NCBI GenBank assembly: GCA_035048485.1
Contig: CM068590.1
Coordinates: 3,880,093-3,944,092 of the forward strand
From: Pteria penguin
Taxonomy: Eukaryota; Mollusca; Bivalvia; Pterioida; Pteriidae
Direction: 5' to 3'
DNA length: 64,000 nt
Each line of letters starts with the position of its first letter. Position 1 is the stretch's first letter. The notes beneath the pieces are model-generated. The model saw nothing but the letters and a program-made list of their open reading frames with translations, was not told where the DNA came from and made no database searches. Made by a program: the position numbers and the translations under genes. Positions 425-64,000 of the stretch are shown in pieces.

Positions 425-1212
425 ATGATGTTTTACAGATAAGATAATATTGCATAGCCGTCAATCGGACAAAATTTGAAAACAGTGATTGTGGAAATAT
501 TTTTGAAGCAGAATTAGTACACATAGACTGACGGACAGACGGAGAAGTAATCTAAAGTATAATCGAGATACTGAGATATGGATGAATGTATAGAAAGTAT
601 ACAGAGCTGTTTCTCACATGGGAGCATAGGACTGAAATATACAATGATTAAGAACAATAGTGTACATTATTTATATGGATTATAAATCATGACACCCCTA
701 AACCTGCTCCCCCGCACCCATCCCTTCTAGATCCGCTTTATCTTTCGTTGCAAAATTATTTTTGAAATCTGTTGTTTACAATTTCTTCTAATACGTATCA
801 CAAGTAAAACCACTGTATTTATATTTCTTCTTTTTATGGGAGTTTAATTTCTCTAATTGCCCTCATGGCCTCCATTCTGCAATTTCATAATCGACTACAT
901 GATGTTTCTTACGGGGCAACCATTTGATTTTATGGGAGGGGTGTGGACTTTGTCTATTTTCAGAGGTGCAATACCCAAAAAGTTACATTATTTTCTTACA
1001 TCGCATGCCGGATTTTTTTTTTTTACAAAATCTTCCTCCTCCCCCCTCTCCTTTCCCAATCCCGATAAAAATCAATCATTGCTACTTTATCATTACATAT
1101 ATGGAAACCGAATGTGAAATGATGAAGTCTCGTGTCAATGTTGATGCGTATTTCATACACATTTATATCGGGTATATTATAGTTAGAAAATTTTAAGGAA
1201 ATAATGTAATCC
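425..1212. repeat. unit A left arm of segmental duplication
   Basis: This stretch matches 15,285-15,745 (unit B) almost base for base, and matches 54,775-55,065 (unit C) more loosely. Shared landmarks are the 'cgtcaatcggacaaaa' stretch, a run of agacggacagac-type sequence, and 'gtataatcgagacactgag'. The part at 895-1045 reappears at 20,335-20,480, and 1055-1210 reappears at 22,375-22,530, because unit B is interrupted between these pieces. No protein or RNA gene is supported. Confidence 0.8.
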
Positions 1213-1597
1213 GGCAATATCCTGTTATCTACCCCCACAGCTTTCAATCGTTGTCTATATATACTTTATGACTTCAAACATTGTTCACTGTAAGAAAGCT
1301 TGTTTATTGTTGTCAACGTATTGTGATGTACATTACCAATCATATATGTTATGTGTCATGCCCACAAGGGCCCTAATTTGGTCAATAAATTCTATTTTAT
1401 TCTATTCTATTCTATGGAATATAAATACGCATTTTTGTATGTAATAATTGAAGTCTATTTGACTAAGGTAACATATTGGAGTGTTTCTATTAAATTCCAT
1501 TTGCTTTATTCCGTATTTTACAGAATAAATCGAGACATTGCAAAACATTTTGAAGACAACAGGGCAAATAACAAGATACTGCCTGTAATCCTCTTAA
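1213..1597 (+). mobile_element. insert in unit A with LINE-like 3' tail
   Basis: The sequence is present in unit A but absent at the matching places in B (near 22,520) and C (near 55,175). Its left half ends at about 1,417 in 'ggtcaataaattcta' followed by a short (ttcta)n run. That layout is typical of the 3' end of an invertebrate non-LTR retrotransposon. No coding part is left, so this is a 5'-truncated tail at most. The remaining ~180 bases, 1,418-1,597, are unassigned. Confidence 0.5.
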
Positions 1598-1749
1598 TTT
1601 AAAAATTAACTAATCTCACTAACTATTGAAGACAAAATTAAAATATAGAGCTCTATGTACAGCAATGAATGCACAACCCATTCGCAATGATTTTCCAAAA
1701 ATGTGATGTTACATTACTTTTATCTTATATCAGTCGTCGGCAATCTGCG

Positions 1750-2255
1750 ATTTAAATCAGTAGATTAACCAGTGCAGGGTAAAAGTGAGGGTAAATGGGA
1801 AGAGGGTGTGAGAGATCGTGGAGTGGTTAACCAGATGTATATGGTAGAGGGTAGAAATGAAGTTAAATGGGGAAGAGGGTGTGAGAGATCTTGGAATGGT
1901 TAACCAGATGTATGCGGTACAGGGTAGAAGTGAGGGTAAATGAGGAAAAGGGTATGAGAGATCGGCGAGTAGTTAACCAGATATATGTGGTACAGGATAG
2001 AAGTGAGGGTAAATGGAGAAAAGTGTATGAGAGATCATGGAGTGGTTAACCAGATGTTTGTGGTACAGGGCAGAAGTGATGGGAAAATGGGGAAGAGGGT
2101 TTGAGAGATCATGGAGTGGTTAACCATATAAATGAGGTACAGGGTAGAAATGGGGTTAAATGGGGAAGATGGTATGAGAGATCTAGGAGTGGTTAACCAG
2201 ATGTATGTGGTACAAGGTAGAAGTGAGGGTAAATGGGGAAGAGGGTATGGAAGCC
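1750..2255. repeat. ~73-bp minisatellite, unit A (about 7 copies)
   Basis: Tandem array whose unit contains 'gtggttaaccagatgtatgt' and 'gtagaagtgagggtaaatgg' followed by a gagagatcatgga-type segment. The same array lies at 22,705-23,800 and 55,360-57,880. It is least expanded and most diverged here. Open frames reading through it on both strands are artefacts of the repeat. Confidence 0.9.
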
Positions 2256-2385
2256 CCCTCCTTTCCCTTTTCGCCACATATTTATTAATAAGAATTAAAA
2301 TTTGGCACCAAAAATGGCTGAGTAGTTTGGCTAATACACATGTGCTCCCCTTCTTTTTCGGAAATCCTAGATCCGCCACTGATAA
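2255..2385. mobile_element. MITE-like terminal segment abutting the minisatellite
   Basis: The last repeat unit runs into 'gaagccccctcctttccc', then an AT-rich spacer, and ends in 'atcctagatccgccactg'. The reverse complement of that end, CAGTGGCGGATCTAGGAT, resembles the terminus of a short non-autonomous DNA transposon. A compact relative with both ends lies at 45,446-45,616. The counterpart at the left of the array may be 'cagtcgtcggcaa' near 1,731. Superfamily is not determined. Confidence 0.5.
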
Positions 2386-2425
2386 ATATTGTATACTTGT
2401 TACATTGTTCTAAAATTAATGAGTG

Positions 2426-2428
<3 letters not shown>

Positions 2429-2460
<32 letters not shown>
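2429..2460. repeat. (CT)n microsatellite
   Basis: An uninterrupted CT run of about 30 bases. The orthologous place in unit C (58,008-58,070) has a longer TCTG/CT run, and in B (23,945-23,975) it is eroded. Confidence 0.95.
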
Positions 2461-2461
<1 letters not shown>

Positions 2462-2479
2462 GCACAGATCTGTCATTAA

Positions 2480-4600
2480 ATCTGTTCCTCTGTTCTTACT
2501 TTTATGTCACTCAATCGGAAAAGCGTAAGGGGGAGGAGGAGGGTCATTACAACAAAATATTTTGCCCTAAGCTGGTTTTAAATTTTAGAATCTATCCAAA
2601 TTTGCCAACATCAATTAAGAGTTAAATGGGATCTTCTACACATACATATACTATCTACCACTACATTAGTTATCAGAATGGAATAGCCCTAATAGCCATA
2701 TTAATACCTTGATACTGGAATTTAAGAACACAGATATAATTTAATACGTGAATACACCTCAACCCTTTTATCATTTGGTCTAATGTAAATATATGGCGCT
2801 CTTTACTCGTACCTATAACGTAAAGCTCTATCGGCAATATTATCTACTTATCTACATTATATATTTCCTCCTAGTTTTGTGTGTCATCAATGCTATGAGC
2901 CACTGATAAGTTGTACGTCAGCAAGGTAAACCGAAACTAAGAACAATATCTAGATTTGATCACGACAAACACCTTATTAAAGAAATGTTTGCCTTGTAGT
3001 TATAAGATATTCCACTTACCCAGGGTTCAATTCATATTTAGTAATATGTGTCCTTCATCGTTGTTTATTTATTATTCAAAACATACGTCTTAATTACATT
3101 GGCGGAATTTGGGGTATTGGGGTGGGGATAAGGGATTAGTTTGCTACCCCGGCAACCCCGTCTCTCCCTCTCACCCTCGTGATGGTCCGAAAATATTACC
3201 AAAAAGTTTATTTATAACCATTTTTAGGACTGCACTCCCCTTTTTCCACACCAAATTGTATAAAACATTAGTCATTCGAGACTGCAAATCCCCCCCCCCC
3301 CCTTCCCCAGTTTTTGAAATATTTCTAAATGGCATATGGATTATGGTTTGATTCAGTTATATCTATGTGCATATTTCATTTTCACTTTTTCTGCTGAAGT
3401 CCATTCTTTGTGAATAGTAAACAAGAGTTATCCTTCTTTTATTTCAATGACAGTGTAAACATATTAGTACAGTTTACCTCCGTGTTATTGTTTATGATAT
3501 GTTAATCATTAAATGCCACGCAACTTATGTAGTGAAAATTATTATAACGCCTGTCTTACTTAACATGCTATTTTGAAGTAACCTCAAAGGACTGTTCAAA
3601 CCCTAGATTTTTAATATTTTTTATTCTGATTAATGATTATATTAATTATTATGCTATCAATTAATATATGATTTTAATATCCACCGTGAATAAATATTAA
3701 TCTTAATCGATGGCTATTGTTTGTTAGTTGATTTTGCATTCACGTGCTTCTGACATAGTCAGTGAAGGATTTTCAGATGTTTGAATAACAACAAAACATG
3801 TTTAATCTCGCTCTTGTTGTCTCCAGGAATTAAGGCAGAATGCGAACAACAGGTGGCCCATTATCCGGTTTCCAGGATCGTGTGCGTCACAATCAACGTG
3901 CTGAAGGAGGTGTGGCCGATAAGATAAAGAACAAAGAAAGAAACAAACAAACAAATCAAAAGAAAAGAAAAGAAAAAAGTAAAAGAAACAGAAAATGAGA
4001 TAAAACAAAAATATAATATATGAAATAAAGAAATGAATAAAGGAAAATATGTAACTTTTGATACGAATGCAAACAGACTGACGTATATCCTGTACTCTTT
4101 CTAACAAAGAAATTCCATCTATATCAGCCCATTTGCCATTTATAGTCAATCCGTTTGATGACATTGGTTATAAATTGTCATATGTAAGATTTTTGGCATA
4201 TCCATATCTCAAGTGTGGCATGTTTTCTACCACTGAAAATGTCGCGTTTTAACCTTACAGTTACAGACGCATACATCAAAGACTTCAATAACTACAGGTT
4301 AACATCTTTGGATCTTTAAAGATTCCATACACACCTGAGTTTTATTGGTGTTTGTAATACCACGCTTGAAAACCTTGAATGATGTATATCTAGATTTACG
4401 TTGTAACGCTGGTGTCGATACAAAGAATGACGCCATTATATGACGTCCTGAAATATGGCAAGAGAAATGGGGTAACCGCCTTTACGTGTATGCGTAGAGT
4501 TAATTCCCGATCCTTTAATTAGAAGAGGTTGAAGACATTTCGAATGGATGATGGGATATGACTTTGGTTTTATCGTAAGCAATAATGCAAATTTTCAGTC
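2480..4600. repeat. unit A common body, part 1
   Basis: Matches 23,985-26,060 in unit B and 58,075-60,050 in unit C with only small indels. It includes a poly-C tract near 3,292, an A-rich stretch at 3,930-4,030, and non-coding sequence. Minus-strand open frames at 3,802-4,164 and their counterparts in B and C are F/L-rich translations of the A-rich stretch. I do not regard them as genes. Confidence 0.75.
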
Positions 4601-4603
4601 AAA

Positions 4604-4875
4604 TATGTGCCTAGTGGTATCGCGCTCTCCTCCTATTCAGGAGGCCGGGGTTCCAGTCCCGCTCTGGTTATGCTGGTGTTCCGTCCTTCAGATGAAACAG
4701 TAAAAACCGAGGCCCCGTGTCGTGGTATGCATGGCACGTTAAAGATCCCTCAATGCTTCGGGACGGTCCCTTGCAAAGGTCAAAGTGTGTATGCCCCGCA
4801 TCAGGCAGATGCTGTCACTATACACACGAAATATTGGTGGTGTGACGTTAAACAATAATCAATCAATCAATCAAT
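4604..4875 (+). mobile_element. tRNA-derived SINE, unit A copy
   Basis: The head contains an A-box-like 'tgcctagtggtatcgcg' and a B-box-like 'ggttccagtcc' near 4,649. A core follows with 'gatgaaacagtaaaaaccga' and 'ggcacgttaaagatccct', and the element ends in an (atca)n tail at 4,856-4,875. The first bases of the tRNA head are missing compared with the copy at 44,147. It lies at the same place in units B and C, so it was inserted before the duplication. Confidence 0.85.
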
Positions 4876-4879
4876 ATAA

Positions 4880-5910
4880 ACATTTTCAAATCCGCATTTG
4901 AATTCAATGAAGAATTATACATAGATTATATATATTTCAATATTTCCTCTTTGAAGAAAATAGTCTTGGTAAACAAAAGATTAAAAAATAAGATTTTACT
5001 TAGAAATTGAAGATAAATGAAAAGGACGACAATTATGCTGTTGTTCAGGATGATGTTAGTGCATACCAAGTGCAGAGTGTTGCTAACTAGCCTTTATTTA
5101 GGATTTATCTTGCTGTTGTTATAATATAAGTTCTACCTTTATTGTGTATATTATTATGATGTGTATAGACATCTGCATTTTCACCAGTTAAAAATCTCGC
5201 GAAATTTCACCACGAAAAAGGCAGTGTAGTGTTTAATACAATATTTTACTCTTTGTTTGTTTATAATAATCTCCTTTTTAAAAAGGTTTTCTATTCAAAT
5301 CTCCTTAACTGAAGATTCTGATTTTTTGTAGAAATGCAAAACGTAGTAATGATTAGTGCAGATGGTTAATTGGAAAAAGTGCCAGTCTTGTATTCTGACG
5401 GATTCGCTAGCTACGAGTTTCACAAAAAGTTAAAAGTCAATTTACAATTACATGTATAATGTATAAATTCAATTCTTGCAGAACAAAATTATGATCAGTT
5501 TTAATTTTTTGATTGCAAATATTCAGATATATACTGACCAAATTATATATGTACAAATTCATTGGAAAGTATTGTGCACAAGTTTAATTATAAGAAAGTA
5601 AATAATTCTCTTTTCAATCAATGCATTTCTACATACTTCAAGATGATTGTAGTGTCAGTTGCAAAATCTAAATAAATCTTACACTTTTTCTGGTGTTTCC
5701 AACAATTGTTTTCATGGCTGAATCATATACAAGTAAGTATATACATGAGTAAGGGATAAAGAATTAAACTTTTCTTCTCAAAAATTTATGCCAAACATTT
5801 ATTGACTTAACATAAGATAATTATGATCGTAATATATGAGATCAGATATTCAAGTCATATAATTAAATATATGTATCACACTATATTCAAGTAATATTGT
5901 AATTGTATTT
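4880..5910. repeat. unit A common body, part 2
   Basis: AT-rich non-coding sequence that matches 26,335-27,720 (B) and 60,330-61,434 (C). No domain, RNA gene or array is visible. B carries an extra ~270-bp block at about 26,568-26,838 that A and C lack. Confidence 0.7.
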
Positions 5911-7120
5911 TATACTTGCAGATATCTGGATGACATTTTGGTTATCGACAACCCTGAATTCGAGCAATTTATATAAGAAATTTATCCACCAGAGCTCACA
6001 TTGAATAAAACTAATACTTGTGATAAATCTACAACTTTCTTAGATTTAAACATCAAAATTATCAACCACCTAATATATACCAATATTTATGATAAACGTG
6101 AGGATTTTGGATTTCCTATTGTAAATTTCCCTTACTTGGATGGCGATGTCCCTCGACTCCCATCATATGGTATCTATATATCTCAATTAGTTCGGTTTGT
6201 CAGAGGCTGCACCGATGTTTTGGACTTTCATAAACGAAATTTACAAATTACTACGAAACTTTTAACTCAGGCTTACAGATATCACAAGCTAAGAAAAACA
6301 TTCGGCAAATTCTTCAGATCTTATTCAGAACTTCTATCTAAATTTGGAAATATTTCTTTTCAACAGTATGTATCCAATGGAATTTCCCATCCTTACTTTT
6401 ACGGTGATCTCGTATATAAACTAAGGAAAGAAAAGGCTCCGATAACGTTATTCTATCATGTAATAAAATACTCAAACGTCTTCTAAATAGACAATATGAT
6501 ATTGAGATCATTAAAAAGACTATAGGTCTTGTATTTGGCCCCTCTACAGCCTTATGCAGACTTTTACTTGAGCGTTGCACGCTGACTAACAGGGCGGTGG
6601 GGACTATATGGCGGGCCTTGTCCAAACCTCTTTCAGAGGAGACATGGTCCTGAACCTCGTCCCCTCTGACTGTTAGTCGGGACTCCTACAGATCTAGGGT
6701 CTTAGCTCACTTTCAGATTGGCAGAGCACAGTTATCATGTTGGTGTCGCATATATTTTTATACCATTATGTATTTTACAATACCTTACGTGTTTATATTT
6801 TTATGACCTCTCAATATGCGATACCTGTTGACCCTTGTTCTTTACGTGGAGGATTATTTGTAAATTTTTAATTGTACTTTCTTTGATTGTTCTGCTGTTA
6901 CGGTGAGTGGGAAGGTGGGCCCGTAAACCGGTTAACCACACCATTTGTTTGGCTTTTGTCAAATTAAATGACCGTCCTAAGTCGGTATCGTAATTGCACT
7001 ACAATCAAATATTTCTGTAATGTGATATATGTTCTAATATATTATTTATATTCATGTATTGTATATCTCTATGGTGACTTCTGCCACATAACTGAGCCAG
7101 TAACTCCTCTGTTTTCTCTT
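5911..7120 (+). mobile_element. 5'-truncated reverse-transcriptase element, unit A
   Basis: Begins near 'tatacttgcag' and reads straight into a reverse-transcriptase active-site motif, YLDDIL (about 5,922). Then come FLDLNIKI and the long segment translated at 6,001-6,486, with the markers DKREDFGFPIVNFPY, GIYISQLVRFVRGC and KLRKTFGKFFRSYSELL. An in-frame TAA after EQFI and a one-base frameshift near 6,430 (shared with unit C) break the frame. The 3' part contains 'cgtaaaccggttaaccac'. The empty site is preserved in unit B at 27,721. The family may be Penelope-like or another non-LTR lineage; I could not decide from motifs. Confidence 0.8.
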
Positions 7121-9235
7121 GAATTTACATGTATTCTGGTAGCTAACTCTTATATTGTTATTGATGAATAAATCGAAGTAAACCTATGACTTTTATATGG
7201 TATTTGTGATAGTTTTTCGATAAAGAAAACCCGTTTTCACAATGTCAGGGTTTTGCAATTCCGTGTCTCCATACAAACTCCAGACAAAATTTGTTTCAAT
7301 ATTCCAAAGTTGGTGTATCTTGTCATTATTTTATTGGTTCTATGTGATACCATGGATTCAATCGGGACGCAGCTTGCAATAAAACACATTTATGTGAATA
7401 ACGACTTTTGACTCAAGGGTCGCATGGAAAAATGACGTCGCAAAATCTTGACACAGCCTTTGAATTACTTAAGCAGATTTGACCATACTACATCTTTAGG
7501 GAATTAAAAACAGAATTACCTATATATAGTTTGAGAAAAACTTTTACCAATATAGTCAAAATACAATGTAGTAGATGCCAGTGTGGTGGAAATTCCAAAC
7601 CTGCCTACAAGAACTTAAAAAAGGAGACGCAACTTCGTTAAAACAGGATTATGTTTCAGGGTCAATTTCTGACGAAGTAACATAGTAACAAATTTTCAAA
7701 CCACTCTTTTATAGTTTAGTGGATTGTACAAACAATTTGGCCCTTTCCATTGTTTCATACGCGTATCCGTACCCTGCAATACTCTAAAATATCATTAAAA
7801 GACTGGAGTGTACTAGTAATGTATTCCAGTATAGAACTTGACTTTCTAATCATTTTTCCAAATGTTTAAAAGGTTTAAGGGCAGTCATTGCCCATGTCGC
7901 TTCAACAAATATTTCCAATTTGTATTTTTCTTTTACTTTGTGAGTAAGTTTCATTTCCAAGACATACCCATCACCTGACTGTGAAAATGTATAAAAAATG
8001 ATAACATGAAATTTCATTTTAAACCAAATAACTCTTAGCTTGCTCATAAAATTCATAAAGCACGGGTATGGTGTTTTGGTATTCATCATGCTCAAGCAAA
8101 TGCATCTCACATTACCGTTCCCTCTCCGGTAGTGTACATGTTTAATACCTTTGTGAGATAATACACAAATCCAGAAGTTGGTTTCAACATGGGAAAACCT
8201 AGAGTCCCTAATTCATTTGGAATTTTAACCAAAAACATTAATGTCATTGCACACCCTCCCCGCCCCCATTTCCCCCACACACCAACACATGTATACACTT
8301 CTACATTCCACCTTTCCTGCCTGGGACTTCCTTAAAAACATGTTGTAACCCCTTACAAAGTAAATGGGACCTACCGTTATAACAATATCCAATGTTATAA
8401 TTCTTTGATACAAATGTTCATACCGGCCCACATGTGATGTTGACACTGTCACTGGCTACTTTGACAGTAGTACTACATTAAATCTACATATTTCTATTAC
8501 ATTGAATAAAACTAACCTAAAATCTATTTAAAATTATTATTTATACTAACCTCTACAGGGTTATAATATTTTTTTCTTAATGTTGCAGCGTTTGATTTAA
8601 TAATTTGGCACATTTTTATCATCGCTAAAGGGGCTTTTCCCCCATTGACCTTTGACACGTTACGCAAAGCGTGGATTCAACTATTAACTTCAACTGTTCA
8701 ACTGAAATCTAATTCACAATATATTAAAGATGATTACTCCTGACGCAAAATGCACACACCGCAAGCGGAAAAACCTCTACATCTAGGTATGTACATGGTT
8801 ATCGTATAATAATACCCGACAATATTTTCATGAATTTTATTGTATTGCATAACCACCTAGCTGTACCATGGAATGTTCGATCCGGATTATCAAGCACTTA
8901 TCTGTGATTAAATTTGTCACCAAATACACGTTCCCCATACCGGGTATTTACATCTTATGTTTTGATTATTTGACACCATACAAAATCACAGTTAGGTACC
9001 TTTGCTTGTCCGTCTGGATTTTCTAGACGATCGTATATTAGTTACTGTGAAATATATGTATACAATCTACTGCATAATAGATTCCTTGTAGTCGTTGTCT
9101 ATTGTTAATTTTAGAATAAATAAATCAGAGGCTCTGACTAAGCTAAAGCTCTCTTGGTCATATTTACTGTATCGTTTTCGTTCTTTCCTTGTCTCGCCTT
9201 ATTCCATAAAACACTAATCCTAACAGCACTGTGAA
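7121..9235. repeat. unit A right arm
   Basis: Matches 27,722-29,325 plus 29,976-30,102 in B and 62,652-64,000 in C. The piece at 7,850-8,460 is open on the minus strand over two short overlapping frames and is nearly identical in all three units. However, B carries a stop in the same frame and no domain is recognisable, so I leave it uncalled. Nothing else stands out. Confidence 0.7.
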
Positions 9236-9241
9236 GTACCC

Positions 9242-9895
9242 GGAGACCAAAGTAGACAGCAACCCATAGAAAGAAGAAGACCGAAGTAGGAAGCAACTCA
9301 TAGAAAGGAGAAGACCGAAGTCGGAAGCAACTCATAGAAAGGAGAAGACCGAAGTAAGTAGCAACTCATAGAAAGGAGAAGACCGAAGTAGGTTACAACT
9401 CATAGAAAGGAGAAGACTGCAGTAGACAGCAACTCATAAAAAGGAGAAGACCGATGGAGGAAACAACTCATAGAAAGGAAAAGACCGAAATAGGTAGCAA
9501 TTCATAGAAAGGAGAAGACTAAAGTAGACAGCAACTCATAGAAAGAGGAAGACCGAAGTAGGAAGCGACTCATAGAAAGGAGAAGACCGAAGTAGGCAGC
9601 AACTAATAGAAAGGAGAGACCGAAGTAGACAGCAACTCATAGAAAGAATAAGACCGAAGTAGGTAGCAACTCATAGAAAGGAGAAGACCGAAGTAGGCAG
9701 CAACTCATAGAAAGGAGAAGACCGAAGTAGGAAGCGACTCATAGAAAGGAGAGGACCGAAGTAGGTAGCAACTCATAGAAAGGGGAAGACTAAAGTAGAC
9801 AGCAACTCATAGAAAGAAGAAGACCGAAATAGGTAGCAACTCATAGAAAGGAGAAGACCGAAGTAGGAAGCACCTCATAGAAAAGAGAAGACCAC
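9242..9895. repeat. 34-bp tandem repeat
   Basis: About 19 imperfect copies of a 34-bp purine-rich unit containing 'catagaaaggagaagaccga' and 'agtaggtagcaac'. It occurs only in unit A; the matching place in B (44,600-45,220) holds unrelated sequence. The open frames through it are spurious. Confidence 0.95.
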
Positions 9896-9897
9896 AA

Positions 9898-9900
9898 ATG

Positions 9901-9956
<56 letters not shown>

Positions 9957-9999
9957 TGTTATTATTATTATTATTATATTTTATTACTATTATTATTTT
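9898..9999. repeat. (ATT)n microsatellite
   Basis: About 90 bases of ATT triplets with one short interruption, directly after the 34-bp array. Confidence 0.95.
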
Positions 10000-10205
10000 A
10001 TTTCTGAGCTCGAGTCTCCCAGAAAAGCTGTCAAATGGTAACGAAAACTCCATTATGGTAAGATAATATTGCCTTCTTCAACTAAGATACCGACTCTTAG
10101 GACTTTCAATCCTTTGATTTTGATTTTAATTTATTTATTTATTATTTAAGCATAATTATTGCCATTGTTGTTCATACCTCACCTTGACGATGAAGTACTG
10201 TTGTT

Positions 10206-10520
10206 TTCCCGTTTATAGGAGACGGTGTTACTCTATCCATTGAGTGCCTAGCTCGTGACAGGAAGGTCATTTATTAGAATCCTACCGGTGGCTCCTCAGT
10301 ATCGTAGATACGAGACAATACAAACCGAGATCTCGTGTCACAATAGACCTAACACGTCAACCCTCACCACTTCCGGGTGGTCCGCTGCATAGATATCCGG
10401 CTGTTTTGGTTTACGCCGTTACCATATAAATGAAACACACTTAGTGTAATACAAACAAACAAACAAAAAAAAACAAAAAAACAAAACAAAAAAAAAAACA
10501 AAAACAAAAAAAAAACCGCC
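10206..10520 (+). mobile_element. diverged tRNA-type SINE with A-rich tail
   Basis: Contains a tRNA-head-like 'gagtgcctagctcgtgac', then a core segment 'aaaccgagatctcgtgtca' that matches the core of the other SINEs here. It ends in caaacaaacaaac and poly-A runs. Box elements are eroded, so the start is approximate. Confidence 0.5.
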
Positions 10521-10559
10521 ACCATCATCATCATCGACGACAACAACAACAACAACAAC

Positions 10560-10599
<40 letters not shown>

Positions 10600-10618
10600 T
10601 ATATATATATATATACAT
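10517..10618. repeat. compound (CAT)n (CAA)n (TAA)n (TA)n microsatellite
   Basis: Successive short runs of CAT, CAA/CGA, TAA and TA repeats at the SINE tail. Unit B has only a reduced version near 45,310-45,355. Confidence 0.9.
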
Positions 10619-11170
10619 AGGTAATGTGGAAACCTCTTCACCATGTTATACGAGTTATCCGTCTTTAAGTATAGTATACGTTCAGCTGAATATATTTGAT
10701 TCTTTATAACAAAATATTTAGCTTTTCCTCACTCGAAAATAGATGCATAAATATAATACTAAACGACAAGTTCTTCCACAATAAAAATAAAAAGTCGTAT
10801 ACTCTCTGTTCATGAAATCAGAAAACAAAGGACTGTAAATGTGTTTTTATGTCGCTTTAGACAGCTTTACAGTAATATCATGACATGGAGGCAGGCTGTT
10901 AAAGCTCTAAAACATAGCGGCACAATCCGAGAATCGAACCCGAATCGTCTCTGCTGAAGAGCATAAAGGCAGAGAAAGTAATGCACAAGAGGTTGCATAT
11001 GATTCCGATTTCAATCAAATCAGATTGTAAACACCGCCATGTTTATGTCTTGATATCCTCATTAAATGAAAAATACACAGACGTCCATAATATCGGTGTA
11101 ACACATGTATATGTTTATCTTCTATAGAGATAAATAGAAATAGTTAAAATATCACCAGTAAAACATTCAC
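10619..11170 (-). other. TRIM-flank region with a tRNA-like SINE
   Basis: The first ~90 bases match 45,358-45,440 and mark the start of the duplicated TRIM flank. On the minus strand, 10,990 to 10,830 reads as a SINE. It has a B-box-like 'gggttcgattctcgg' near 10,935 preceded by 'tgcattactttctctgcc', and ends in 'cgacataaaaacac'. The A-box is not clear. The remainder has no recognisable content. Confidence 0.45.
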
Positions 11171-11174
11171 ATAG

Positions 11175-11545
11175 GTACGATATCCATTGTAAGGTGATCG
11201 TGTCATTGATATAATGTTGATTTGGAAAGATGATCTTTGAATACAAAAGTAGTTATGATGTTGAATGCTAAGGTGATCGCTTTAGAGTTATAATGTTAAT
11301 TGGTCAGGTGATAAAATATATTGTTATGATGTTGACTGGTAAAGTTATCGTTATATTGGTATAATGTTAATTAGTAAGGTGATCGTTATATTGTTATGAT
11401 GTTGATTGGTCAGGTGATCGTTATATTGTTATGATTTTGACTGGTAAGCTGATCATTACATTGTTATGATGTTAATTGTTGAAGTGGCCGTTATATTTTT
11501 ACGATGTTAATTTGTTAATTTCTTTGGTGATCTTGATATTGTTGA
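11175..11545. repeat. ~35-bp tandem repeat, unit A
   Basis: Degenerate copies of a unit containing 'ggtaaggtgatcgttatatt' and 'gttatgatgttgatt'. The paralogous array at 45,866-47,030 is about three times longer and partly homogenised. Confidence 0.9.
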
Positions 11546-12334
11546 GGCGATGATGATTTTGTTGGCTTCAGTTTAAGCAACAGTAACTTGAAAAAAAAAT
11601 AAATAAAAAAACAAAACAAAACAAAACAAAACAAGAAGATGCCTGAGTGGGTCTATGTAGCTCACCCGAGAACAATTTGCTCATTCGCAAACAATTGTCT
11701 GCTTATTCGCCATAAATTTATTGCATATTGATTTTGAAACTAATAAAATACTGCACACTTGTTCATCTACATTAAATAATCAAGACATGATAAAGAATAT
11801 ATAAAACAAACAAACAAACAAACTAAAACTAAATAAAAAAACCTCCATAAAACAAACAACAAACAAACATACAAACAATCAATTTCCCCTTCAAACAGAT
11901 ATTTCCAGAAAAAGTTGAAGACAGCTACAAGGCTTCTCTCTGCAATATAACTTGGTATCCATCAATATCAATATCTTCCAATTAGTTCTAAGTAGACCAA
12001 AGTTTATTGTTACATACTGACATTACAAACATCACATTTATTAATCCGGGAAAAATTATTTTGCAATAGGACAGCAACTCATCTTAGAGCATCCTTCTAT
12101 ATCAATCTTATACATTTGTTTTATGATCCCTGCAACCAGTCTGAATAAGTTTGTAAACGGAAGATCATCTCTGAGACTACGTCGCCCCGCCCTGAATCCG
12201 CATCAGGATCCAGTAAAACACACTTCTATGGAACCTTTAGTACCTCATATCAACCAAGTTTCATTGAACTCCACGCAACAGTTGAGAAAAAGTCGTAAGT
12301 ATGAACTCTTTCAACAGACAGACGTCAACCTATA
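11546..12334. other. TRIM downstream flank, unit A
   Basis: Matches 47,035-47,640 in unit B and includes an A-rich (aaaac)n run near 11,590-11,635. No gene is supported. The plus-strand frame at 12,123-12,335 has a frame-shifted counterpart in B and no domain. Confidence 0.5.
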
Positions 12335-12965
12335 ACAATAGGTCACTTAAGCTTTTGGGTTAGGTGGGTTAGGAGGTCATGTTATAACAAAAGATCAATT
12401 GAGACTTTGGGTTAGGTGGGTTACGAGGTCACGCTATAACAATAGGTGATTTGTGCCTTTGGGTTATGTAGGTTAGGAGGCCACGCTATAACAATAGGTC
12501 ACTTCTGCCTTTGGCTTAGGTGAGATACAACGTGACGCTATAACAACAGGTCACTGAAGCCTTTAGGTTAGGTGGGTTAAGAAGTCACTCTATTACAATA
12601 GGTCACTTGAGCCTTTGGGTTAGGTGGGTTAAGAGGTCACGCTATAACAATAGGTCAATTGAGCCTTTGGGTTATGTGGGTTACGACGTCACACTATAAC
12701 ACTGGTTCACTTCAGCCTTTGGTTTAAACATTATTTATTGAGGCAAATGCAAGAAATATCGATTTTCAGACTAATAAAATTTAGGATCAAGCAACAAGTA
12801 TAGAATACTTATGTTAAGCTCTCGCTCAGCCTTTAGCTTATGTTAGTGAGAACGACAGGCCATAACAATAGGTAACTTGAGTAAGTGGCTTAGGTGAGTT
12901 AGGACAAAGGCTCAGGTGAGTAAGAAGGGCACGCTTTAACAATAGATCACTTGAGCCTTTGTATT
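12335..12965. repeat. ~52-bp tandem repeat, unit A
   Basis: Imperfect copies of a unit containing 'gctataacaataggtcactt' and 'gagcctttgggttaggtggg'. It is interrupted at 12,722-12,820 by AT-rich sequence. The same array lies downstream of the second TRIM-like gene at 47,650-48,335. Confidence 0.9.
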
Positions 12966-13342
12966 TATCTGTTGTTAAAAGCATATTATTTTGACTCTGA
13001 CAAGATTCGAATCTACGACCTGTTTATCCATCCATCCAAATCGGAATTCCCATGAATATCAAGTGCAACGAATTTGTTCATGAGTAGAAAGAAGTAAAAA
13101 TATTTAATGATTTCATTATTTAATCATTCAAGAATAATAGAAATCAAAACTCCAACCTGCCTTCTCTAAACAATTTACCAATTCAGCATTCTGTACTATG
13201 AAGTGTTTATCATAAATAAGTAACTTCACATGTACACTATATAGTACGTCGTTTTTCACTTTCGGGAATGCTTCAGAAAATGGAGTATTTACATAACATA
13301 ATGAAACGAATGAATCAAGTTTATAGAATTAAAATGATAAGG

Positions 13343-50470: not shown

Positions 50471-50508
50471 CTGCTATAGGCACTTTTTAGTAGCATACGT
50501 AGTACTTT

Positions 50509-50523
50509 CTGAAATTCAATAGA
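50509..50523 (-). promoter_or_regulatory. putative 3' splice site of a 5'-UTR intron, paralogue 2
   Basis: 'tctattgaatttcag' about 40 bases upstream of the ATG, conserved with the site at 15,108-15,122. Confidence 0.45.
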
Positions 50524-50564
50524 AATATAAAATAATATCTATTAGTAGAATGGTTAGCTTATTA

Positions 50565-51025
50565 AATCATATCACGTATGAAAATATTAACATATTTATA
50601 TCAAATAAATTTTACTATCAAATATTCATGTATGTGTTAAACATGAGACTTAAGGAATAAATCTGCAGGTTGTTAGTAAAATTTTCTCTGAAGAGATATT
50701 TTCAAAAATGAAAGAATGAATTTCATTTCGCAGCGGCTTTCAGAATATTCATAATTTCAAAATGATCTTTATTGTGTAATTTTGATATTCTAAAAAATGT
50801 TGCAAATGTGTCATGTTACGGTCTGGCGTTCTGGGCTGGGGTTAAATTTCGCGCTGAGGGGTATAACAGATAATCATAGTGTAATATATATAAAATCATA
50901 TCACTTATAAAAAGGCTTGAAATAAAATATGTAATTTTAATTTTACTATAATCAATTCGTATATATGTTAAACATGAGGCTCAAGGTCTGAGTCTGCAGA
51001 TTGGTATTAAAACTTTCTCTCAAAG
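50565..51025. repeat. local direct repeat of ~135 bp, copies ~320 bp apart
   Basis: 50,565-50,700 and 50,885-51,025 share 'aaatcatatcac', 'atgttaaacatgag' and 'aaactttctct'-type segments in the same order and orientation. They lie upstream of paralogue 2. No gene is present. Confidence 0.6.
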
Positions 51026-54739: not shown

Positions 54740-55359
54740 TTCGCTGACTATGCGCAACAGGATGTAATTTGCAGCTAATGTTTATAGATACAATTAAATG
54801 CCATAACGGTCAATGGCACAAGAATTAAAAACAGTGAATATATGCAATAATTGTGGAAGTATTTCTGAGTATTAGTACATGTTCACATAGACAGACGGAC
54901 AGACAGAAAGATAATCTACAGTATAATCGAGACACTGTTAGTGAACTGAAAAGACGTGAATAAATTTATAGATAGAATACACGGCCTTTTCTCTCATGGG
55001 AGCGGAGAATTGAAATATACGTTAAGAACAGTAGTGTAATATTTATAAGAACTGTAAATCATGACACCCCTTTATCATTACATATGGAAACCGAAAGTGA
55101 AATGATAAATTCTCGTGTCATACACATTTATATCGGCTATATTATAATAAGGACATTTCAAGAACAATGATAATTCTGTTCTAATAATACTTTAAAACTG
55201 AACTAACCTCACTATCATCTGACGACAAAAGTATATATAGATAGCTCTATGTCTAGCAATAAAAGCACGGACTATTCGCAATGATTTTCCCCAAAAAGTG
55301 ACGTCAGTAACCTACTTTTATCTTATATCAGTGGTAGGCAAGCTGAGGTTTCAGACAGT
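54740..55359. repeat. unit C left arm
   Basis: Matches 425-700, 1,075-1,180 and 1,600-1,755 of unit A, with deletions and more substitutions than B. The shared 'gctgactatgcgcaacagga' near 54,741 is closer to B ('tgactattcgcattagga'). A TGACGTCA site lies near 55,300. Confidence 0.75.
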
Positions 55360-57880
55360 TTATTAACCAGAGTATGTACTACAAGGTAGAAGTGAGGGTA
55401 AATGGGGAAGAGTGTATGAGAGGTCGTGGTGTGGTTAACCAGATGATTGTGGTACTGGGTAGAAGTCATGGTAAACGGTGAAGAGGTTGTGAGAGATCAT
55501 GGAGTGGTTAACCAGATGTATGTGGTACAGGATAGAAGTGAGGGTAAACTTGGGGGGGGGGGAGGGTATGAGAAATCATGGAGTGGTTAACCAGATGTAT
55601 GTGGTACAGGGTAGAAGTAAGGGTAAATGAGGAAGAGTGTATGAGAGGTCGTGGAGTGGTTAACTAGATGTATGTGGTACAGGGTAGAAGTGAAGGTAAA
55701 TGAGGAAGAGTGTATGAGAGGTCGTGGAGTGGTTAACCAGATGTATGTGGTACAGGGTAGAAGCGAGGGTAAATGAGGAAGAGTGTATAAGAGGTCGTGG
55801 AATGCTTAACCAGATGTATGTGGTACAGGGTAGAAGTGAGGGTAAATGGGGAAGAGGGTATGAGAGGTCGTGAAGTGGTTAACCAGATGTATGTGGTACA
55901 GGGTAGAAGTAAGGGTAAATGAGGAAGAGTGTATGAGAGGTCGTGGAGTGGTTAACCAGATTTATGTGGTACAGGGTATAAGTGAGGGTAAATGGCGAAG
56001 AGGGTATGAGATATTTAGGAGTGTTTAACCAGATGTATGTGGTACAGGGTAGAAGTAAGGGTAAATGTGGAAGAGGGTATGAGAGGTCGTAGAGTGGTTA
56101 ACCAGATGTATGTGGTACAGGGTAGAAGTGAGGGTAAATGAGGAAGAGTGTATGAGAGGTTGTGGTGTGGTTAACCAGATGTATGTGGTACAGGGTAGAA
56201 GTAAGTGTAAATGGGGAAGAGGGTATGAGAAGTCGTAGAGTGGTTAACCAGATGTATGTGGTACAGGGTAGAAGTGAGGGTAAATGAGGAAGAGTGTATG
56301 AGAGGTCGTGGTGTGGTTAACCAGATGTATGTGGTACAGGTAGAAGTAAGGGTAAATGAGGAAGGGGGTATGAGAGGTCGTGGAGTAGTTAACCAGATGT
56401 ATGTGGTACAGGGTAGAAGTGAGGGTAAATGAGGAAGAGTGTATGAGAGTGTATGAGAGGTCGTGGAGTGGTTAACCAGATGTATGTGGTACAGGGTAGA
56501 AGTGAGGGTAAATGGGGAAGATGGTATGAGAGATCGTGCAGTGGTTAACCAGATGTATGTGGTACAGGGTAGAAGTGACGGTAAATGGGGAAGAGGGTAT
56601 GAGAGATCATAGTTAACGAGATGTATGTGGTAAATGGTAGAAATAAATGGCGAAGAGTGTATCAGAGATCGAGGAGTTGTTAACTATATGTATGTATTAC
56701 AGGATACAGGTGAGATTAAATGGTATCGGAGATGGTTGTGTGGTTAACCAGATGTGTGTGGTACAAGGTAGAGGTAATGGTAAATGGGGAAGAGGGTGTG
56801 AAAGATCATGGAGTGGTTAACCAGATGTATGTGGTACAGGGTAGAAGTGAGGGTAAATGGGAAAGAGGGTATCAGAGATCGTGGAGTGGTTAACCAGATG
56901 TATGTGGTACAGGGTAGAAGTGGGGTAAATGAGGAAGAGGGTATCAGAGGTCGTTGAGTGGTTAACCAGATGTATGTGGTACAGGGTAGAAGTGAGGGTA
57001 AATGAGGAAGAGTGTATGAGAGGTTGTGGTGTGGTTAACCAGATGTATGTGGTACAGGGTAGAAGTAAGTGTAAATGGGGAAGAGGGTATGAGAAGTCGT
57101 AGAGTGGTTAACCAGATGTATGTGGTACAGGGTAGAAGTGAGGGTAAATGAGGAAGAGTGTATGAGAGGTCGTGGTGTAGTTAACCAGATGTATGTGGTA
57201 CAGGTAGAAGTAAGGGTAAATTAGGAAGAGGGTATGAGAGGTCGTGGAGTAGTTAACCAGATGTATGTGGTACAGGGTAGAAGTGAGGGTAAATGAGGAA
57301 GAGTGTATGAGAGTGTATGAGAGGTCGTGGAGTGGTTAACCAGATGTGTGTGGTACAGGGTAGAAGTGAGGGTAAATGGGGAAGATGGTATGAGAGATCG
57401 TGCAGTGGTTAACCAGATGTATGTGGTACAGGGTAGAAGTGAAGGTAAATGGGGAAGAGGGTATGAGAGATCATAGTTAACGAGATGTATGTGGTAAATG
57501 GTAGAAATAAATGGCGAAGAGTGTATCAGAGATCGAAGAGTTGTTAACTGTATGTATGTATTACAGGATACAGGTGAGATTAAATGGTATCGGAGATGGT
57601 TGTGTGGTTAACCAGATGTATGTGGTACAAGGTAGAGGTAATGGTAAATGGGGAAGAGGGTGTGAAAGATCATGGAGTGGTTAACCAGATGTATGTGGTA
57701 CAGGGTAGAAGTGAGGGTAAATGGGAAAGAGGGTATCAGAGGTCGTGGAGTGGTTAACCAGATGTATGTGGTACAGGGTAGAAGTGGGGTAAATGGGGAA
57801 GAGGGTATCAGAGGTCGTTGAGTGGTTAACCAGATGTATGTGGTACAGGGTAGAAGTGAAGCTAAATGGGGAGGAGGGTA
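55360..57880. repeat. ~73-bp minisatellite, unit C (about 35 copies) with 864-bp sub-duplication
   Basis: The largest of the three arrays. A distinctive variant block ('gagagatcatagttaacgag', then 'ggagttgttaactatatg') occurs at 56,601 and again at 57,465. This shows that about twelve units (864 bp) were duplicated as a block. Minus-strand frames in it are repeat artefacts. Confidence 0.95.
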
Positions 57881-57965
57881 AGATTTGGCACCAAAATAGC
57901 TGAGTAGTTTGGCTAATACACATATGCTTCCCTTCCCTTTCGGAAATCCTGGATCAGCCACTGAT
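57881..57965. mobile_element. MITE-like terminal segment, unit C
   Basis: A shortened counterpart of 2,255-2,385. The pyrimidine-rich part is missing, and the end reads 'cctggatcagccactg'. Confidence 0.45.
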
Positions 57966-58007
57966 AAATCTTGTATCTTTCTTACATTGTTTTCAAAAAT
58001 TAACGAG

Positions 58008-58029
58008 TGTCCCTCTGTCTGTCTGTCTA

Positions 58030-58070
<41 letters not shown>
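58008..58070. repeat. (TCTG)n(CT)n microsatellite
   Basis: A TCTG/TCTA run followed by about 20 CT dinucleotides. Orthologous to 2,429-2,460. Confidence 0.95.
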
Positions 58071-58071
<1 letters not shown>

Positions 58072-60050
58072 AATATTTTGCCCTAAGCTTGTTTTGAATT
58101 CTAGAATCTGTCCAAATTTACCAACACCATTTAAGAATTAAATGGTATCTTCTACACATGCATATACCATCTACCACTCCAGATTATCAGAATATAATAG
58201 CGGTAATAGCCATATTAATACCTTGCTACTGGAATTTAAGAACACGGATGTAATTTAATACGTGAATACACCTCTTCCATTTTATCATTTGGTCTAATGT
58301 AAACATATGGCGCTCTTTACTCGTACCTATAACGCAAAGCTCTATCGGCAATATCATCAACTTATCTACATTATATATTTGCTCCTAGTTTGTGTGTCAT
58401 CAATGCTATGAGCCACTGATACGTCAGCAAGGTAAACCGAAAGTAAGAACAAAATCTAGATTTGATCAGGACAAACACCTTATTAAGGAAATGTTTGCCT
58501 TGTAGTTATAAGATATTCCCTTTACTCAGGGTTCAATTCATATTTAGTAATTTGTGTCCCTCATCCTTGTTTATTCATTATTCAATCATTTATTTAAGGT
58601 TGTCAAATTATGCGTCTTAATTACATTTTCATACTAGAGGAGTGGGATGGGGATGAGGGTAGGCGGTTGGTTTGTTACCCCCGCAACCCCGTCTCCCTCC
58701 CCCTCGAGGTCGGAAAATTTTACCCAATTGTGTAAAACAATAGTCATTCGAGACTGCAGCTCCCCCTCCCCCAGTTTTTGAAATATTTCTAGATTGCATA
58801 TGAATTATATCAATATGAGTTATATCTATGACCATATCTCATTTTCACTTTTTTCTGCTGAAGTCCATAATTTGTGAATAGTAAACAAGAGTTATCCTTC
58901 TTTTATTTCAATGACAGTGTAAACATATTAGTACAGTTTACCTCAGTGTTATTGTTTATGATATGTTAATCATTAAATATCATGCAACTTTTCTAATAAT
59001 AATTATTATAACCTACTTAATAGGCCATTTTCAAGTAACCGGAAAGGACTGTTCAAACCCTAGATTTTTAATATTTTGTTATTCTGATTAATGATTATAT
59101 TAATTATTATGCTATCAATGAATATATGATTTTAATATCCACCTTTGACAAATATTAATCTTAATCGATGGCTATTGTTTGTTAGTTGATTTTGCATTCA
59201 CGTGCTTCTGACATAGTCGGTGAAGGATTTGCAGATGTTTGAATAACAACAAAACATGTTTAATCTCGCGCTTTTTGTCTCCAGGAATTAAGGCAGAATG
59301 CGAACAACAGGTGGCCCATTATCCGGGATCCAGGATCGTGTGCGTCACAAGCAACGTGCTGAAGGAGGGGTGACCGATAAGATAAAAAACAAAGAAAGAA
59401 ACAAACAAACAAATCAAAAGAAAAGAAAAGAAAAAAGTAAAAGAAACAGAAAATGAAATAAAACAAAAATATATGATATGAAATAAAGAAATGAATAAAG
59501 GAAAATATGTAACTTTTGATACGAACGCAAACAGACTGACGGATATCCTGTACTGTTTCTAACAAAGAAATTCCATCTATATTAGCCCATTTGCCATTTA
59601 TAGTCAATCCGTTTGATGACATTGGTTATAAATTGTCATATGTAAGATTTTGTGGCATATCCATATCTCAAGTGTGGCAAGTTTTCTACCACTGAAGTTT
59701 TAACCTAACAGTTACAGACGCACACATCAAAGACTTCAATAACTACAGGTTAACATCTTTGGATCTTTAAAGATTCCATACACACCTGAGTTTTATTGGT
59801 GTTTGTAATACCACGCTTGAAAACCTTGAATGATGTATATCTAGATTTACGTTGTAACGCTGTTGTCGATACAAAGAATGACGCCTTTATATGACGTCCT
59901 GAAATATGGCAAGAGCAATGGTGTAACCGCCTTTACGTGTATGCGTAGAGTTAATTCCCGATCCTTTAATAAGAAGAGGTTGAAGACATTTCGAATGGAT
60001 AATGGGATATGACTTTGGTTTTATCGTAAGCAATAATGCAAATTTTCAGT
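58071..60050. repeat. unit C common body, part 1
   Basis: Closely matches 2,560-4,600 of unit A and is more similar to A than to B over the SINE-proximal part. No gene is supported. Confidence 0.75.
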
Positions 60051-60055
60051 CAAAT

Positions 60056-60327
60056 ATGTGCCTAGTGGTATCGCGCTCGCCTCCTATTCAGGAGGCCGGG
60101 GTTCCAGTCACGCTCTGGTTATGCTGGTGTTCCGTCCTTCAGATGAAACAGTAAAAACCGAGGCCCCGTGTCGTGGTATGCATGGTACGTTAAAGATCCC
60201 TCAATGCTTCGGGAGGGTCCCTTGCAAAAGTCAAAGTGTGTATGCCCCGCATCAGGCAGATGCCGTCACTATACACACGAAATATTGGTGGTGTGACGTT
60301 AAACAATAATCAATCAATCAATCAATA
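60056..60327 (+). mobile_element. tRNA-derived SINE, unit C copy
   Basis: Orthologue of the SINE at 4,604, with the same truncated head. The B-box is altered to 'ggttccagtca', and the (atca)n tail is intact. Confidence 0.85.
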
Positions 60328-61434
60328 TAAACATTTTCAAATCCGCATTTGAATTCAATGAAGACTTATACATAGATTATATATATTTCAATATTTTCTC
60401 TTTGAATAAAATAGTCTTGGTAAACAAAAGATTAAAAAATAAGATTTTACTTAGAAATTGAAGATAAATCTCGAGTAGTATACCTCATAACAAATCACGA
60501 ATCTGGATCATCTAAGCGTTTGTGAAATAGTATCATTAACCCCATATGAAAAGGACGACAATTATGCTGTTGTTCAGGAAGATGTTAGTGCATACCAAGT
60601 GCAGAGTGTTGCTAACTAGACTTTATTTAGGATTTATCTTGTAGTTGTTATACTATAAGTTTTACCTTTATTGTGTATATTATTATGATGTGTATAGACA
60701 TCTGCATTTTCAGCAGTTAAAAATCTCGCGAAATTTCACCATGAAAAAGGCAGTGTAGTGTTTAATACAATATTTTACTCTTTGTTTGTTTATAATAATC
60801 TCCATTTTAAAAAAGTTTTTCTATTCAAATCTCGAGCTCCTTTAATGAAGATTCTGATTTTTTTTTGTAGAAATGCAAAACGTAGTAATGATTAGTGCAG
60901 ATGGTTAATTGGAAAAAGTGCCAGTCTTGTATTCTGATGGTTTCGCTAGCTACGAGTTTCACAAAAGTTAAAAGTCAATTTACAATTACATGTATAATGT
61001 ATAAATTCAGTTCTTGCAGAACAAAATTATGATCAGTTTTAATTCTTTAATTGCAATTATTCAGATATATACTGACCAAATTATATATGAGCAAATTCGT
61101 GGGAAATTATTGTGCACAAGTTAATTATAAGAAAGTAAATAGTTCTCTTTTCAATCAATGCATTTCTACATACTTCAAGATGGTTGTAGTGTCAGTTGCA
61201 AAATCTAAATAAATCTTACACTTTTTTCTGGTGTTTCCAACAATTGTTTTTAAGGCTGAATCATATACAAGTAAGTATATACATGAGTAAGGGATACAGA
61301 ATTAAACTTTTCTTCTCAAAAATTTATGACTTAACATAAGATAATTATGATCGTAATATATGAGATCAGATATTCAAGTCATATAATTAAATATATGTAT
61401 CACACTATATTCAAGTAATATTGTAATTGTATTT
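60328..61434. repeat. unit C common body, part 2
   Basis: Non-coding sequence matching A and B. It retains the 'ctcgagtagtatacct' segment that A has lost, but lacks B's extra block. Confidence 0.7.
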
Positions 61435-62651
61435 TATACTTGCAGATATCTGGATGACATTTTGGTTATCGACAACCCTGAATTCGAACAATTTATATCA
61501 GAAATTTATCCACCAGAGCTCACATTGAATAAAGCTAATACTTGAGATAAATCTACACCTTTCTTAGATTTAAACATCAAAATTATCAACCACCTAATAT
61601 ATACTAATATTTATGATAAACGTGAGGATTTTGGATTTCCTATTGTAAATTTCCCTTACTTGGATTGCGATGTCCCTCGACTCCCATTATATGGTATCTA
61701 TATATCTCAATTAGTTCGATTTGTCAGAGGCTGCACCGATGTTTTGGGCTTTCATAAACGAAATTTACAAATTACTACGAAACTTTTAACTCAGGCTTAC
61801 AGATATCACAAGCTAAGAAAAACATTCGGCAAATTCTTCAGATCTTATTCAGAACTTCTATATAAATTTGGAAATATTTCTTTTCAACAGTATGTATCCA
61901 ATGGAATTTCCCATCCTTATTTTTACGGTGATCTCGTATATAAACTAAGGAAAGAAAAGGCTCCGATAACGTTATTTTATCATGTAATAAAATACTCAAA
62001 CGTCTTCTAAATAGACAATATGATATTGAGATCATCAAAAAGACTATAGGTCTTGTATTTGGCCCCTCTACAGCCTTATGCAGACTTTTACTTGAACGTT
62101 GCACGCTGACTAACAGGGCGGTGGGGACTATATGGCGGGCCTTGTCCAAACCTCTTTCAGAGGAGACATGGTCCTGAACCTCGTCCCCTCTGACTGTTAG
62201 TCGGGACTCCTACAGATCTAGGGTCTTAGCTCACTTTCAGACTGGCAGAGCACGGTTATCATGTTGGTGTCGCATATATTTTTATACCATTATGTATTTT
62301 ACCTTACGTGTTTATATTTTTATGACCTTTCAATATGCGATACCTGTTGACCCTTGTTCTTTACATGGAGGATTTTTTGTAAATTTTTAAATGTACTTTC
62401 TTTGATTGTTCTGCTGTTACGGTGAGTGGGAAGGTGGGCCCGTAAACCGGTTAACCACACCATTTGTTTGGCTTTTGTCAAATTAAATGACCGTCCTAAG
62501 TCGGTATCGTAATTGCACTACATTCAAATATTTTTGTAATGTGATATATGTTCTAGTATATTATTTATATTCATGTATTGTATAGCTCTATGTATGTATG
62601 TATATATGACTTCTGCCACATAACTGAGCCAGTAACTCCTCTGTTTTCTTT
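61435..62651 (+). mobile_element. 5'-truncated reverse-transcriptase element, unit C
   Basis: Same insertion site, 5' end and 3' end as the element at 5,911, including the YLDDIL start. It shares the one-base deletion near KLRKEK that ends the frame at 62,010. It differs by a TGA after KANT (shared with the nested copy at 34,192), whereas A reads TGT there. It is therefore the same ancestral insertion as A's, with later changes or conversion. Confidence 0.85.
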
Positions 62652-64000
62652 TGAATATACATGTATTCTGGTAGTTAACTCTTATATTGTTATTGATGAA
62701 TAAATCGAAGTAAACCTATGACTTTTATATGGTATTTGTGATAGTTTTTCGATAAAGAAAACCCGTTTTCACGATGTCAGGGTTTTGCAGTTCCGTGTCT
62801 CCATACAAACTCCAGACAAAAATTGTTTAAATATTCCAAAGTTGGTGTATCTTGTCATTATTTTATTGGTTCTATGTGATACCATGGACTCAATCGGGAC
62901 ACAGCTTGCAATAAAACGCATTTATGTGAATAACGACTTTTGACTCAAGGGTCGCATGGAAAAATGACGTCGCAAAATCTTGACACAGCCTTTGAATTAC
63001 TTAAGCAGATTTGACCATACTACATCTTTAGGGAATTAAAAACAAAATTACCTATATATAGTTTGAGAAAAACTTTTACCAATGTAGTCAAAATACAATG
63101 TAGTAGATGCCAGTGTGGTGGAAATTCCAAACCTGCCTACAAGAACTTCAAAAAGGAGACGCAACTTCGTTAAAACAGGATTATGTTTCAGGGTCAATTT
63201 CTGACGAAGTAACATAGTAACAAATTTTCAAACCACTCTTTTATAGTTTAGTGGATTGTACAAACAATTTGGCCCTTTCCATTGTTTCATACGCGTAACC
63301 GTACCCTGCAATACTCTAAAATATCATTAAAAGACTGGGGTGTACTAGTAATGTATTCCAGTATAGAACTTGACTTTCTATTCATTTTTCCAAATGTTTA
63401 AAAGGTTTAATGACAGTCATTGCCCGTGTCACTTCAACAAATATTTTCAATTTGTATTTTTTTTTTACTTTGTGAGTAAGTTTCATTTCCAAGACATACC
63501 CATCATCAGACTGTGAAAATGTGTAAAAGAATGATAACATGAAATTTCATTTTAAACCAAATAACTCTTAGCTTGCTCATAAAATTCATAAAGCACAGGT
63601 ATGGTGTTTTGGTATTCATTATGCTCAAGCAAATGCATCTCACATTACCGTTCCCTCTCCAGTAGTGTACATGTTTAATACCTTTGTGAGATAATACACA
63701 AATCCAGAAGTTGGTTTCAGCATGGGAAAACCTAGAGTCCCTAATTCATCTGGAATTTTAACCAAAAACATTAATGTCATTGCACACCCTCCCCGCCCCC
63801 ATTCCCCCACACACCAACACATGTATACACTTCTACATTCCGCCTTTCCTGCCTGGGACTTCCTTAAAAACATGTTGTAACCGCTTTCAAAGTAAATGGG
63901 ACCTACCGTTTTAACAATATCCAATGTTATTATTCATTGATACAAATGTTCATACCGGCCCACATGTGATGTTGACACTGCCACTGGCTTTTTTGACAGT
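62652..64000. repeat. unit C right arm, runs off the window
   Basis: Matches 7,121-8,465 of unit A up to the last base ('tttttgacagt' against 'ctttgacagt'). The minus-strand frame 63,640-63,924 is longer here than in A and B because of indels. Without a domain I do not call it. Confidence 0.75.

Follow-up and report, generated by a model that had tools for sequence, protein, structure and literature searches.

The window analysed here, the whole 64,000-nucleotide stretch C11:3880093-3944092 of the Pteria penguin genome, carries tandem repeat units (A, B and C) with genes for TRIM-like proteins, in which a B-box is combined with a C-terminal NHL beta-propeller. On balance we favour the reading that these genes belong to a large array of B-box/NHL genes without a RING, which has grown as a mosaic, in which selection acts on one loop face of the propeller, and whose members would bind differing ligands, likely in innate recognition. 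Positive selection was found in the putative recognition domain, on its predicted binding face, and was absent from the rest of the protein.

The extent of the array was assessed in the 838-Mb assembly (49 contigs) by a six-frame search with protein A, the product of gene A; 75 of 710 candidates were scored, and the counts are therefore lower bounds. At least 81 matches were obtained genome-wide, at least 72 of them on C11, where merging of matches within 3 kb leaves at least 58 loci between 3.018 and 7.116 Mb. At least 31 of these loci are full-length and open (at least 536 query residues and no stop) and 27 are partial or broken; in some of the 'partial' loci a single frame stays open around an internal gap, and the intact count may therefore be higher. 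Further units continue to the right of the window; to its left is the end of a unit whose gene is frameshifted. A preliminary description of this DNA had recognised three units and growth by block duplication: the three units in the window are real and block duplication is supported, but the process was not a three-unit event and has produced an array of mosaics of about 4 Mb. B-box open frames are also densely grouped at C14:1.0-1.5 Mb, C8:0.82-1.0 Mb and C8:50.6-50.8 Mb (150 of 779 candidates scored), and these groups are perhaps further arrays of like kind. Searches of the assembly for COX1 and, without a positive control, for mollusc haemocyanin found no match.

Diversifying selection was studied in 26 of the 31 full-length C11 copies, after removal of a divergent clade (4388k, 4413k, 4507k and 4520k) and of 4945k, which has an altered C terminus; the divergent clade and two C10 copies form an outgroup set (n = 6), and a C9 copy is in neither set. 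The most variable sites concentrate mainly at two places per blade. At sites picked in 14 copies, the ratio of nonsynonymous to synonymous variation (pN/pS) in the other 12 is 1.74 (bootstrap 1.20-2.79), compared with 0.48 at other propeller sites, and the reverse split gives 1.31 (1.00-2.00) compared with 0.42. The top-24 lists from the two groups of copies have 20 sites in common, where 2.3 are expected, and the top list of the outgroup has 13 in common with that of the ingroup. Site models M1a and M2a, which we coded ourselves and ran on fixed trees rather than in PAML, give twice a log-likelihood difference (2dL) of 368.8 for the propeller, with a selected site class of omega 5.9, and of 135.0 and 166.5 in two groups of copies; the value for the N-terminal region is 0.0. 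When each blade was given its own tree, all six were significant (largest p 0.0073), and the same block-wise test was significant in none of four N-terminal blocks. At the 24 most variable sites, chosen by variability in the same copies, variation at codon positions 1, 2 and 3 is 0.51, 0.466 and 0.314; in the rest of the propeller it is 0.099, 0.076 and 0.149.

In beta-propellers, the loops before strand 1 and between strands 2 and 3 make up one face. When the 19 sites with a posterior over 0.9 were placed on the strands of a structure model, 15 fell in loops predicted either to lead into the first strand of a blade or to connect its second strand with its third; sites 423 and 509 are modelled where a first strand begins, and 447 and 560 in loops of the opposite face. 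RNA contacts of zebrafish LIN41 include R564, R581, R611, K628, D629, Y658, R676, R707, R752 and R770 (PMC5908797). Most of these contacts fit a rule, being either the residue that precedes P of P-x-G or residue 16 after that P; TRIM71 at that rule reads RPWGV...VADR, with D629 one residue further on. Applied to gene A, with an offset of 17 in blade 4 to allow for its one extra residue, and with another residue in the place of P in blades 1 and 2, the rule gives positions 337, 354, 380, 397, 421, 438, 462, 480, 507, 524, 551 and 568. Ten of these 12 LIN41-equivalent positions are among the 24 most variable of 249 sites (p = 5.5e-10), in a test that was not blind, the rule having been set down after the variable sites were known. 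For this reason we give a slide control: mean entropy is 2.20 at the 12 positions, against a comparison value of 0.56, and lies between 0.28 and 1.21 when they are slid by -7 to +8 residues, being highest at +1 and +2. Judged by this sequence correspondence, the selected sites centre on the predicted counterparts of the positions where LIN41/TRIM71 grips RNA.

The same patterns bear on an ordinary birth-and-death array, in which relaxed constraint lets duplicates drift and the variable positions are no more than surface loops that tolerate change. Many copies are indeed broken, the median pairwise whole-gene ratio of nonsynonymous to synonymous divergence (dN/dS) is 0.465 among 19 copies, and loops are generally more variable than strands; yet pN/pS exceeds 1 at sites picked in separate copies, the selected site class has an omega of 5.9, codon positions 1 and 2 vary more than position 3 at the 24 top sites and not elsewhere in the propeller, and sliding the LIN41-equivalent positions costs much of the signal. 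We regard drift of this kind as an unlikely account of the array.

The statistics show that selection has altered, for the most part, a pair of loop positions in each blade, on one face of the propeller; since that face is the counterpart of the RNA-contact face of LIN41/TRIM71, the copies would be expected to bind different ligands there. The B-box and helical part would oligomerise the copies, and their most likely role would be in innate sensing of nucleic acids or proteins that are non-self. Alternatively, these NHL proteins could diversify for gamete or self/non-self recognition, or for mRNA control, rather than for pathogen sensing; against this, large size and turnover of a repertoire are more usual in immune families. 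In its favour, RNA is bound by LIN41 and Brat, which are NHL relatives (PMC5908797), and fungal NWD propellers with a similar site pattern include incompatibility genes (PMC4986451). The present data separate none of these roles, and we rate the alternatives to pathogen sensing, taken together, as quite improbable.

The units themselves are mosaics. The order and orientation in which the preliminary description had them recur are correct, although they are not simple copies: the closest pair shifts along the unit and the insertions differ. The left arm is most alike between A and B (88-89%; A-C 79-86%, B-C 79-84%), and the body from about 4050 to 7600 between A and C (97-98%, with up to 97.7% noted, versus 91-93%); at 7771-8468 the three units share 96-97% identity, A and B being closest by a small margin. 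Single segments between these regions break the pattern (for example 2251-2428, where A and C are closest), and within a single unit A-C identity varies between 79% and 98%. Comparison of 264 kb around the window revealed a stretch of about 12 kb that extends from close to the 3′ side of one gene, over a unit border, to the middle of unit A, and that is repeated 111 kb away in pieces 97.3-99.0% alike. Its flanks have different closest relatives (92-94% on the right; on the left no match of at least 400 bp at 93% or more). Finally, trees of the N-terminal half and of the propeller reject each other. Shifting relatives, a border-crossing block and conflicting trees point to block copying that is not tied to the unit, and to exchange of sequence between copies.

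The sequence thus shows an array that grows by copying of blocks without regard to unit borders and whose copies are then mixed, probably through gene conversion or unequal exchange. Exchange appears to hold the propeller scaffold alike: diversity at four-fold sites is mostly lower in propeller windows (0.069-0.249) than in N-terminal windows (0.149-0.308), with overlapping ranges, and lower silent diversity in the propeller is as expected from conversion. That haplotypes assembled side by side have created false tandem units is very improbable, and a mis-join of A, B and C unlikely, because, although the blocks 111 kb apart and the A-C body have identities in the allelic range of many invertebrates, identity between A and C falls to 79% in their left arms, insertions differ, proteins A and B are 77% identical with a synonymous divergence (dS) of about 0.33 between their genes, and the similarity of the distant block drops on its right and is lost on its left.

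Genes A and B are both intact, as the preliminary description had stated, with stop-to-stop open reading frames (ORFs) of 580 and 570 codons. Pfam searches of their products return zf-B_box (43.2 and 29.0 bits; cut-off 24.1) and NHL, and the second B-box-like finger of gene A scores just below threshold (25.2 versus a cut-off of 27). Residues about 115-220 look helical by eye, and residues 73-187 match TRIM3 chain 8amr_A (phmmer). The proteins thus have the one or two B-boxes of the TRIM (RBCC) family and a six-bladed C-terminal NHL propeller, and they lack the N-terminal RING of the strict family: neither protein has a RING match in Pfam, and a pattern search found no RING consensus in gene-strand open frames up to 8 kb upstream of eight genes. 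The label 'TRIM-like' given earlier is therefore apt, and 'TRIM' in the strict sense would not be. A search for homologues among 5.8 billion proteins gave two distant matches. The top sequence match in the PDB, the WD-40 repeat protein 2ymu, was set aside as propeller-repeat similarity because TRIM3 and TRIM2 lead by structure.

Since the genes point left, the left arm of each unit lies 5′ of the preceding unit's gene, at 0.07 to 4 kb, and it may hold the promoter and 5′ exon of that gene. A 5′ stretch aligned in five units (A, B, D, E and G) may serve in splicing; a stop lies between its acceptor-like site and the ATG, and the ORF opens after that stop. The third gene that had been predicted to the right of the window is present there as a broken copy, its frame being split at two places into pieces of 145, 358 and 151 codons. 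As a separate observation, six of 24 gene copies examined contain a run of G8 to G15 in the propeller near codon 440, four of them out of frame, and only the runs of 12 and 15 keep the frame. A slippage-prone frameshift switch is possible; homopolymer assembly error or plain pseudogenes account for the runs equally well.

Several known systems resemble the array. By sequence and structure, the best TRIM matches are the TRIM-NHL proteins (TRIM2, TRIM3, TRIM71/LIN41, Brat and Thin), which likewise join a B-box to a six-bladed NHL propeller; in contrast to these, the proteins described here lack a RING and any Pfam match to filamin, are 14-24% identical to them in the propeller, and belong to a large diversified array. 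The finTRIMs of teleosts are also clustered, related TRIM genes with a recognition domain under positive selection in an M1a/M2a test, but they carry a RING and use B30.2, whereas here the array is RING-less and the NHL propeller is selected (PMC2657112). Fungal NWD/HET WD40 NLRs share a beta-propeller, a small number of selected sites in each repeat on the interaction face, and concerted evolution; shuffling of their WD40 repeats takes place both inside and among genes with NACHT and fungal effector domains, whereas exchange here is between tandem genes on a B-box/NHL scaffold (PMC4986451).

We read the array as a recognition repertoire that would work like finTRIM B30.2 or the fungal NWD propellers, set on an NHL scaffold, with ligand, expression and immune role all presumed. 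More tentatively, and with slightly less than even confidence, we propose that an animal lineage has made the TRIM-type NHL propeller a hypervariable, germline-encoded receptor repertoire of tens of tandem copies, in which conversion holds the scaffold and selection continually redraws the RNA-gripping ring of LIN41, made up of about two loop residues in each blade. If so, the NHL propeller would be one more scaffold to reach the solution of B30.2 in finTRIMs and of fungal WD40 propellers. About 20 residues per protein are named as candidates for ligand-contact swaps, and the array illustrates, on the scale of a chromosome, how such a repertoire can be fed jointly by block copying and exchange. 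No diversified NHL propeller was found among the titles and abstract openings searched, a coverage outside which most subscription papers fall. Family expansion as such is not new, since a bivalve study names a B-box orthogroup among its notable gene families (PMC8382680) and oyster immune families have grown by tandem duplication (PMC4346834).

Table 1. Features of the window and its surroundings (window positions unless C11 is given; TRF, Tandem Repeats Finder; SINE, short interspersed nuclear element; SECIS, selenocysteine insertion sequence).
Feature	Position	Strand	Details
Unit A	about 402..15240	+	left arm, body, right arm, gene; masked self-BLAST, TRF, borders read off
Unit A arrays	1775-2249 (73-bp array)		34/35/52-bp arrays in right arm; TRF
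Retroelement piece in unit A	5911..7118	+	about 1.2 kb; counterpart in unit C 61435-62649; self-BLAST
SECIS-like hairpin in unit A	6600-6663		27.2 bits, below family cut-off (Rfam SECIS_1)
Gene A	13343..15058	-	single coding exon, ATG to stop; first ATG is codon 10 of ORF
Gene A protein			B-box, second B-box-like finger, helical middle, NHL propeller; without RING
Gene A NHL propeller	13373..14077	-	codons 337-571; carries positively selected sites
5′ stretch conserved between units	15090..15215	-	branch-point-like and acceptor-like signals, read by eye
Unit B	about 15230..50611	+	insertions about 15752-20326, 20492-22371, 30103-44550; masked self-BLAST
177-codon open frame	19928-20461	-	inside unit B insertion
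Insertion in unit B	30103..44550	.	retroelement, ion-channel frame, 28-bp array, tRNA-headed SINE
Retroelement in unit B	34192-35370		within insertion 30103..44550; SECIS_1 match 34840-34904, 37.8 bits (Rfam)
Ion-channel open frame	39190-39912	+	Ion_trans_2 domain, 63 bits (Pfam); adjoins 28-bp array
28-bp array	40144-44116		about 4 kb, inside unit B insertion; TRF
SINE-like repeat	4609-4870, 26068-26327, 44147-44417, 60060-60321		about 262 bp
Gene B	48761..50470	-	protein 77% identical to gene A; ORF, Pfam
Unit C, left half	54744..64000	+	runs on past window to window-equivalent 72395
Third gene	C11:3950517-3952487		window-equivalent 70425-72395; 6.4 kb beyond right edge
G-run lengths	C11:3874k, 3951k, 3985k, 4260k, 4281k, 4291k		8, 10, 14, 12, 15, 11

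The units were delimited by self-BLAST of the window after masking of tandem arrays, which were located by TRF. Three same-strand collinear chains result, with E-values down to 0, in agreement with the tandem collinear duplication described earlier, and the 73-bp, 35/69-bp and 52-bp arrays sit where they had been placed. The chain of unit A runs to about 15214. Unit C possibly starts near 54580, allowing for an insert of about 140 bp. Unit B is long because of its insertions, the biggest of about 14.4 kb, and it lacks at the equivalent site the retroelement piece common to A and C.

The retroelement in unit B belongs to a family with a YLDD reverse-transcriptase motif and the SECIS-like hairpin at its end. 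At least 85 SECIS_1 matches over the Rfam cut-off, of up to 49 bits, occur genome-wide (150 of 28,938 candidates scored), which exceeds the number of selenoprotein genes known from an animal. The C-terminal part of the reverse transcriptase is matched by all ten hairpin copies fetched, three over only 17-27 residues. A search of the literature by title found nothing on a retroelement with a SECIS-like hairpin. The stop codon of the unit B frame falls within the SECIS AUGA core, and in four of five nearby copies a stop precedes DKST (read as TGA in B and C), with TGT in A; a selenoprotein reverse transcriptase is possible. A conserved selenocysteine site was not upheld: the site preceding DKST aligns in three of ten fetched genomic copies, all distant, with Ser, Ser and Phe codons.

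Among the other insertions of unit B, the 177-codon frame has no Pfam match at E 0.001; by eye it may resemble a YqaJ-like nuclease. The SINE copy at 44147-44417 is still recognisable as tRNA-Arg (CCT), and the ion-channel frame may, as judged by eye, represent the final exon of a two-pore potassium channel.

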